A stretch of DNA of 64,000 bases, taken from NCBI GenBank assembly GCA_017560255.1, contig JAFYOI010000035.1:1-64000 (forward strand), in the 5' to 3' direction. Source of the stretch: Clostridia bacterium (GTDB lineage: Bacteria > Bacillota > Clostridia > Oscillospirales > Acutalibacteraceae). A program made the translations under genes and the position numbers. Below are positions 16,797 through 57,053 of the stretch, one piece after another. The number at the start of each line of letters is the position of its first letter. Position 1 is the first letter of the stretch. The notes under the pieces were generated by a model that saw only the letters and a program-made list of their open reading frames with translations, was not told the origin of the DNA and made no database searches.

Positions 16797-17057
16797 GTGA
16801 AAGGCTGTGAACAAGACAAGTAGCATAGGAATTCGTTTGAAGTGAGTGCGGGGCAGTGTAAACCGCGTAACAGAGCCTGTGTGAATAACACTTGGGAGCC
16901 GCAATCTGAACGGTGTAAACTCAGTAGGTGCGACGGGGGCTGACCGTTATATTAGCAGGCTTTTTGTGAAGCGCAGAGTGACCGGAAACGGTAAGATAGG
17001 TGGTACCACGGGTGCAGGCTCGTCCTATTGTCAGAGGGCGGAACTGTGCTTTTTTTA
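16797..17057 (+). ncRNA. T-box leader (tRNA-sensing riboswitch) of the asparagine operon
   Basis: The 3' part holds the T-box core AGGTGGTACCACGG at 16998-17011. Downstream is an alternative hairpin (CGTCCT at 17021-17026, AGGGCG at 17035-17040) and a T run at 17050-17056, which form the terminator. Upstream is a long structured stem I with an AGTA near its 5' side, like the S-turn of specifier loops. An AAC at 16909-16911 followed by G is a candidate Asn specifier, but I could not fold the stem to prove it. Uncharged tRNA would favour read-through into asnS. Confidence 0.9.
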
Positions 17058-53263: not shown

Positions 53264-53294
53264 AACAGACTTGCTATTGCAAGTCTATTTTTTA
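53264..53294 (+). terminator. Terminator of the tRNA-Thr/Tyr operon
   Basis: AGACTTGC and GCAAGTCT form a stem (53267-53286) followed by ATTTTTTAT. Confidence 0.88.
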
Positions 53295-53393
53295 TCCATT
53301 GCGAAAGCAATGGCATATCATCAACGATAGCATCGCTATCGTTGTATCTCATCAGTCCGTCGGGACTGTATATCATCACGCATAGCGTGTATC
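53294..53393 (+). repeat. Palindrome array 1 (unlike palindromes with a conserved linker)
   Basis: Four different perfect or near-perfect palindromes: CATTGC-GAAA-GCAATG, AACGATAGC-ATC-GCTATCGTT, AGTCC-GTCG-GGACT and ACGC-ATA-GCGT. They are joined by ten-base linkers GCATATCATC, GTATCTCATC and GTATATCATC, ending with GTATC. The palindromes share no sequence; the linker is constant. It lies directly after the tRNA terminator. Confidence 0.9.
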
Positions 53394-56037: not shown

Positions 56038-56075
56038 TAAAAATACCCCTCGTTTTGTAACGAGGGGTATTTTTG
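56038..56075 (+). terminator. Terminator of the CFI-box module
   Basis: AAATACCCCTCG and CGAGGGGTATTT form a 12-base-pair stem followed by a T run. Confidence 0.9.
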
Positions 56076-56082
56076 CGTTCGC

Positions 56083-56157
56083 AACCCTCACGGGTTCGAA
56101 TCCCATATCAAACTGAACAAAACAAAAAGAACCCATCTTGCGATGAGTTCTTTTTTG
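56083..56157 (+). other. Possible tRNA 3' remnant followed by a terminator
   Basis: CGGGTTCGAATCCC (56091-56104) has the exact form of a tRNA T-arm. About 20 bases later comes a terminator-like stem (AAAAGAACCCATC / GATGAGTTCTTTT, 56125-56156). The rest of a tRNA is missing and there is no CCA. It may be an attachment-site scar or a decayed tRNA gene. Confidence 0.45.
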
Positions 56158-56221
56158 TTGCGAAAGAGCAGTAAAAAGGTGCGTGAAATGCTAGGTTATT
56201 TGCCAGAAGTAGTATTTTTGT

Positions 56222-56782
56222 TCAATTAAAAAATTTAACATATTGTTTTCGTAAGTGAAACCAACCGAACAAATGTCGAAGTGCAATCGTTAATCCAACA
56301 AAACCAACGATGGCTAAAAACAGATGCCTAATGTCTAAAAGTGGATTCTTATTAACAACGCACGATAAGGTTATACCTGCAACAGCTATCGCTGTAAAAA
56401 GAAGTCCAATCAGAACATATTGCATTACCAAATGTCTTAAATAGATATTTCTGTAAAACGTTCTTTGCAGCAAATCTTCTGTTTTCGTTATACGATAAAC
56501 AGAGGTGGTTTTAAGCAGTTCAATAAAACTACCGCCTATTTCGGTGGCTTTGAGTTGCTTTTTTAATGCTTGCTCGGTTATTATCATTCCACTTTCCTTG
56601 ACAAAAGAACAAGTAAAGAAATATTTAACTTCCTTATTTTGTGACCGAATAAATCTAAATTTTCTGAATCCGGAGATTTTATCTAATCTCCACCCATCTT
56701 TCTCCAGTTGTTCCAGTTTGGACTCAATTTCTTCACATTTCCATATTGGAGAGAAGAAACGCATTGACATTGTCTCTTTCAA
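56222..56782 (-). CDS. DUF2812-type membrane protein
   Basis: About 186 residues. The N-terminal part (IESKLEQLEKDGWRLDKISGFRKFRF) is the DUF2812 signature. Two helices follow near the C-terminus, then a basic tail. Such proteins often pair with PadR regulators; none is next to it here. AAAGGAGG seven bases before a TTG at 56782 sets the start. The longer frame to 56908 runs into the palindrome array and is rejected. Confidence 0.75.
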   Translation of the reverse strand: MKETMSMRFFSPIWKCEEIESKLEQLEKDGWRLDKISGFRKFRFIRSQNKEVKYFFTCSFVKESGMIITEQALKKQLKATEIGGSFIELLKTTSVYRITKTEDLLQRTFYRNIYLRHLVMQYVLIGLLFTAIAVAGITLSCVVNKNPLLDIRHLFLAIVGFVGLTIALRHLFGWFHLRKQYVKFFN

Positions 56783-56831
56783 AATGCCACCTCCTTTGCA
56801 ACTGATTATATTACAAATTAACACACTTTTC

Positions 56832-56934
56832 AATGATGTATCGCTTGTGCGATATGATATACGGCTTACGCCGCATGATATACTTGTTTCGCAAGCATGA
56901 TATATCATCCGTTCCGACAGGGAACGGATATCAT
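56832..56934 (-). repeat. Palindrome array 2 (inverted relative to array 1)
   Basis: Different palindromes, ATCGC-TTGT-GCGAT, CGGC-TTAC-GCCG, CTTG-TTTCG-CAAG and CCGTTCC-GACAG-GGAACGG, are joined by the plus-strand linker ATGATATAC (GTATATCAT on the minus strand). The linker is the same as in array 1, in reverse. It lies downstream of the minus-strand tRNA-Gln and its terminator, so the order tRNA, terminator, array is kept in the same sense. Confidence 0.9.
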
Positions 56935-56940
56935 TGCAAA

Positions 56941-56976
56941 AAACCTCTTTTGTCAGGTAGACAAAAGAGGTTTTTT
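56941..56976 (-). terminator. Terminator of tRNA-Gln
   Basis: AACCTCTTTTGTC and GACAAAAGAGGTT form a 13-base-pair stem, with A and T runs on either side. Confidence 0.9.
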
Positions 56977-56979
56977 ATA

Positions 56980-57053
56980 TGGCAGCGGAATAGGGATTCG
57001 AACCCCAACAAACAGAGTCAGAGTCTGTCGTGCTACCGTTACACTATTCCGCT
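56980..57053 (-). tRNA. tRNA-Gln (CTG)
   Basis: Reading the minus strand, acceptor AGCGGAA pairs with TTCCGCT, with discriminator G and an encoded CCA. The anticodon stem ACAGA/TCTGT holds loop CTCTGAC with anticodon CTG (Gln). The T-arm has GGGTTCGAATCCC. Confidence 0.95.

Follow-up and report, generated by a model that had tools for sequence, protein, structure and literature searches.

The palindrome array behind the tRNA-Gln gene of the window (the whole stretch of 64,000 nucleotides analysed here) is probably, at roughly three chances in four, a gene-less copy of a small, apparently mobile element and thus MITE- or REPIN-like, the gene that it lacks being that of a PF05635 protein, the "23S rRNA-intervening sequence protein" (IVP). 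The array would represent the left and right ends of this element, fused after the loss of the gene, and that the element is mobile we infer from its copies and from polymorphic sites in genome sequences. The features concerned are the following.

56831..56936, minus strand: dyad array of the ATGATAT family, internally shortened, with the ends CAATGATAT (56936-56928) and ACATCATTG (56839-56831); from sequence, stem and fold statistics
56980..57053, minus strand: tRNA-Gln(CTG) gene upstream of the array; ARAGORN, Rfam
56938..56976, minus strand: tRNA-Gln terminator, a stem with the loop ..TTTTGTCTACC.., the array following directly 3'; from sequence
56907..56929, minus strand: palindrome 1 (ATCCGTTCC-CTGTC-GGAACGGAT), remains of the left block; perfect-stem analysis
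56897..56908, minus strand: turning point ATGATATATCAT, where the left linker meets the right linker; from sequence
56883..56896, minus strand: palindrome 2 (GCTTGCGAAACAAG), right block; from sequence
56862..56874, minus strand: palindrome 3 (GCGGCGTAAGCCG), right block; from sequence
56839..56854, minus strand: palindrome 4 (TATCGCACAAGCGATA), right block; perfect-stem analysis
56238..56782, minus strand: ORF downstream of the array, DUF2812, 181 aa; Pfam, sequence
56156..56183, minus strand: possible cassette right end CGCACC-N6-CTGCTCTTTCGCAACA, then a terminator (56121-56155); from sequence
53294..53393, plus strand: sister array after tRNA-Thr/tRNA-Tyr, GTATATCATC family, left block only; from sequence and stems

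The array had been described before at 56832-56934, and it is indeed present on the minus strand, beginning immediately past the T-tract of the tRNA-Gln terminator, the loop of which (..TTTTGTCTACC..) recurs at other array-bearing tRNA loci. Its four palindromes are joined by ATATCAT/ATGATAT linkers, the left block is reduced and the central strand is lost. The motif GTATATCAT occurs four times in the window (0.31 expected; none of 100 shuffles reaches four), including positions 56854 and 56875 within the Gln array and 53368 within the Thr/Tyr array. Perfect stems of at least 5 bp sum to 15 bp in the Gln array, with 14 of 2000 shuffles equally good, and to 28 bp in the Thr/Tyr array, where none of 2000 shuffles matches; as single-stranded DNA the Gln array folds with -27.0 kcal/mol (z -6.5 against dinucleotide shuffles). 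Just 3' of it follow a -10-like TATAAT and the Shine-Dalgarno sequence of the DUF2812 ORF, which occupies the slot where cognate copies have the IVP gene. The motif of the possible cassette right end behind this ORF also precedes a terminator and array in another genome (L162).

Both arrays of the window are oriented in the direction of tRNA transcription, as had been noted. They had also been taken to share one linker, but they belong to two linker families (ATGATAT at Gln, GTATATCATC at Thr/Tyr). The apparent inversion between them merely reflects the strand of the tRNA and the half of the array that survived, because intact arrays hold the linker in both orientations. An intact array is a palindrome of palindromes, in which the L linkers of the left block are mirrored on the right by reverse-complement R linkers. 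In the GTATATCATC family, the left block runs hairpin 1, L, hairpin, L, hairpin, L, hairpin, and is followed by a middle strand and then R, hairpin, R, hairpin, R, hairpin, R being GATGATATAC, the reverse complement of L; the Thr/Tyr array has no right block. The middle strand is complementary to hairpin 1 along its 5' arm and loop, and across 105 arrays it matches its own hairpin 1 over 9.83 nt on average versus 4.11 with another class. Since R is the reverse complement of L, both ends are able to form one long stem with side hairpins, and a copy at tRNA-Leu folds as single-stranded DNA into nested L:R helices that bear side hairpins (z -7.7).

Such folding might also be that of a structured RNA, transcribed either as a noncoding RNA or as a 3' tail, with the tRNA transcript or the antisense strand as its origin, and an RNA tail was among the three guesses of the preliminary description. 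In support of this, Gut-1 (Rfam RF01706) is a curated sRNA, and sister arrays of the TGAAAT family match it with 53-74 bits, above its gathering threshold of 50, whereas the Gln array scores 29.5 bits. The array lies, however, past the terminator and ahead of the -10-like box of the next gene. Array stems are ~99% Watson-Crick, and their mismatches (14 G.T, 9 A.C) show no strand bias. Distinct hairpins of the left half have GNA triloops in 35 of 79 cases and TNC in three, those of the right half TNC in 44 of 76 and GNA in none; the dyad symmetry therefore includes the loops, and as loop types mirror between the halves, neither strand is favoured. Gene-less copies are moreover scattered over unrelated loci. 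Missing wobble bias and the position beyond the terminator led to the rejection of an RNA tail or antisense RNA, and a structured RNA in general is quite improbable; mobility fits best among the three earlier guesses.

The link between arrays and tRNA units that had been suggested from the two sites of the window is borne out in the same genome, where a genome-wide pattern search gave 19 matches (three with the reversed control). From pattern matches, tRNA loci and fetched stretches, true arrays were found at eight places, seven of which are behind tRNA operons in the direction of the tRNAs (Val-Val, Thr-Tyr, Gln, Ser, Leu, Phe-Gly-Cys and Arg). A scan of other genomes, one per species, covered at least 119 stretches, nearly all from gut Clostridia MAGs, and further supports the link: among the matches listed, which still include a few false ones, 120 arrays were scored, 82 of them with a tRNA upstream in the stretch, on the same strand in 81 of these 82. 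Also among the matches listed, the array starts 28-41 nt past the tRNA 3' end in 64 of the 120, and the tRNAs upstream span 30 anticodons. Many arrays without a recognised tRNA still come behind a tRNA 3' fragment ending in CCA. Comparison of orthologous tRNA-Leu genes within one genus showed the array in some genomes and its absence from others. Behind tRNA-Asn (L314, on G000:C47, and L324), an array of the same architecture has an entirely different linker, GTGAAG/CTTCAC, and is followed by an IVP gene. Viral contigs were dismissed, as there were two true matches only, in which a tRNA 3' fragment adjoins the array; these IMG/VR contigs (L236, L238) end in the tRNA 3' fragment, terminator and array, probably the host flank of a provirus.

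Arrays directly past terminators and in a single orientation might be insulators, that is, resident hairpin arrays which stop read-through both ways at tRNA units and pass from one tRNA locus to another by gene conversion. The near-identical Tyr and Cys arrays of this genome, which stand behind different terminators, would agree with this, and the symmetric design would suit a two-way block, but an insulator predicts neither the same elements away from tRNAs, nor elements around an IVP gene on plasmids of other phyla, nor the matching of linker and IVP, and this function is thus very unlikely.

At cognate loci, the array is located just upstream of the IVP gene, and the genome of the window has such loci for both of its families, for ATGATAT after tRNA-Ser (G000:C31:187037-187345) and for GTATATCATC after tRNA-Leu (G000:C31:206693-206971). 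The first ORFs past GTATATCATC arrays are diverse, with PF05635 (23S_rRNA_IVP) in 13 of 57. When 12 genomes were searched for PF05635, a dyad array, as called by eye together with its linker, preceded nearly every readable IVP gene; the linker differed by IVP lineage, and most of the genes followed a tRNA. IVP genes occur in 73 of 246 genomes of the class. A strong dyad repeat is present within 380 nt upstream of 39 of the 105 evaluable IVP genes outside rRNA (downstream control 3 of 105), and 35 of the 105 have a tRNA 3' end at most 450 nt upstream; about half of the non-rRNA IVP genes have no array by the simple repeat score. The idea that the top-scoring IVP genes are those of rRNA intervening sequences (IVS) was abandoned, as for three of them (L336, L340 and L345) the stretch fetched contains nothing that matches rRNA. 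On a tree of 41 IVP proteins, the nine linker families, assigned by motif rules drawn up after inspection and with 69 loci left unclassified, need eight changes, which is the possible minimum, versus a mean of 28.6 with shuffled linkers (none of 200 as low) and 32 for the genome label; the linker therefore follows the protein and not the host, and the match of linker family and IVP lineage holds across bacterial families. No PF05635 gene was found in G018, which has a GTATATCATC array, and no IVP of the ATGATAT lineage in G027, which has three ATGATAT arrays.

Repeat-flanked IVP genes are found also within operons and on plasmids. In plasmids from cyanobacteria, Bernardetia and others, L repeats are upstream and R repeats downstream of the IVP gene, an arrangement seen at 24 of 118 loci versus 3.3% of mismatched pairs. 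Some plasmid IVP genes (L425, L430, L431, L432) lie between genes of restriction or helicase/methylase operons. In genome G382, an IVP gene of the ATGATAT family has L on one side and R on the other, and about 17 more copies, which lack the IVP gene, are scattered between genes, with no tRNA within the 0.8-1 kb stretches read; the neighbourhood of tRNAs, to which the first interpretation had tied the arrays, is thus preferred and not exclusive, and that interpretation as a whole is partly supported. The site of the IVP-bearing copy of G382 has the full element in G413, a copy cut to about 80 bp in G287, and a different sequence with no such element in G412; no clear target-site duplication was seen at the site in these four genomes, and no transposase was identified. 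Dispersed gene-less copies and a polymorphic site are typical of a mobile family whose derivatives have lost the gene.

A complete element exists in two forms, either L block, gene and R block, or, at tRNAs, L block, middle strand, R block and gene, the gene encoding the four-helix protein IVP in both. IVP would recognise its own linker in the paired ends and promote the movement or copying of gene-bearing and gene-less copies alike, with the help of a further enzyme, as IVP has no recognised catalytic domain and another factor would therefore be required. Elements are placed directly behind the 3' end of a tRNA unit, made up of CCA and terminator, or between protein genes, and insertion just outside a transcription unit would be tolerated because nothing is broken. 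For IVP as the mobility factor, the chances appear about even. More tentatively, this could be a new class of minimal bacterial mobile elements in which an IVP of ~120 residues, four-helical and without known catalytic domain, recognises its lineage-specific linker within two inverted hairpin blocks and moves itself and gene-less copies to sites just 3' of tRNA and protein genes, the IVS of rRNA being a special case.

The arrays could alternatively be passive parts of gene cassettes, in which case a serine or tyrosine recombinase would insert the cassettes at tRNA CCA ends and IVP would be no more than a common cargo. Tandem terminator-array-gene units at one tRNA, such a unit swapped between two related genomes that share the flank, recurring right ends, and a large serine recombinase element exactly at a tRNA CCA would all be explained in this way. 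Yet the genome of the window has no PF07508 recombinase, its four PF00589 genes are not beside arrays, other cargo is diverse whereas IVP tracks the linker, and gene-less copies occupy gaps without tRNAs, so that a purely passive role is rather unlikely. Neither type of enzyme was retained as the partner: large serine recombinases insert at tRNA CCA, but their elements have no arrays (two cases read) and none is present in this genome, and none of its tyrosine integrases adjoins an array. Besides the IVP element preferred here, gene cassettes that lie at tRNA CCA ends and have recurrent right ends may form a second layer that carries arrays along. Tandem units and unit exchange of a gene-cassette-like kind were observed at L103, L107, L263 (G023), L267 (G042), L197 and L225, and large serine recombinase elements exactly at tRNA CCA ends at L307, L310, L265, L269 and L278; the recombinase gene makes a tRNA-like right end with its own 3' end (AGTTCGGAT..CCA).

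In its logic, the nearest analogue is the REP/REPIN-RAYT system (PMC2817692, PMC3116915), where short palindromic gene-less copies in inverted paired units likewise go with one matching protein gene and the repeat type tracks the protein lineage. The protein there is a Y1 (HUH) tyrosine transposase and here a four-helix bundle, and the array element has several hairpins per end, a constant linker and a tRNA-proximal position, with eight array sites found in the genome of the window. Like MITEs, the gene-less copies are multi-copy derivatives with inverted ends from a gene-bearing element, as shown for G382 and not for the window copy, but no known transposase or clear target duplication was found for the array element. 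The IVS of 23S rRNA (PMC4990558) shares the protein family, the S23p/IVP-family ORF being present in cognate array copies, and is also short, selfish-looking, sporadic and horizontally spread; it lies inside rRNA, whereas the array elements lie behind tRNA terminators or between genes and have modular hairpin-linker ends and many gene-less copies. Gut-1, described from human gut sequences only and as a noncoding RNA (PMC2864571), equals the left block of the TGAAAT linker family: it was found above threshold between tRNA and IVP gene at four of five TGAAAT-family loci scanned (L328, L385, L396, L407), and two more matches (L209, L128) are after a tRNA, at arrays inserted ahead of GTATATCATC arrays. 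The main text of the Gut-1 paper mentions no tRNA link, IVP link or dyad partner half. In searches of the open-access literature, no description of the tRNA link or of the IVP-array pairing was found; an earlier one in a subscription journal is possible.

In this little-noticed and apparently mobile family, every lineage has a small four-helix IVP of its own and palindromes to match, and because of this coupling the Gut-1 "RNA" and PF05635 join one system, with the Rfam "sRNA" reinterpreted as one end of an element that is apparently mobile. PF05635 proteins have been described as lacking functional characterisation (PMC11270868), and for the S23p protein of the rRNA IVS no function is known (PMC4990558). 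Given a nucleic acid that matches each protein as its partner, the function becomes testable, the question being whether each IVP binds its own linker.

In gut Clostridia, tRNA genes appear to have 3' flanks that are crowded with tiny elements which have landed there. Another small noncoding element, which has a reversed T-arm (GGATTCGAACCC), is found at 56060-56120 of the window and, in the same genome, at tRNA 3' ends or just behind them (L099, L096, L085, L077, L084, L093, L094, L091). At the Arg and Ser loci it is interposed between tRNA and array, parting the two and leaving a copy of the tRNA 3' end. The window also contains a T-box leader (RF00230) at 16798-17030.
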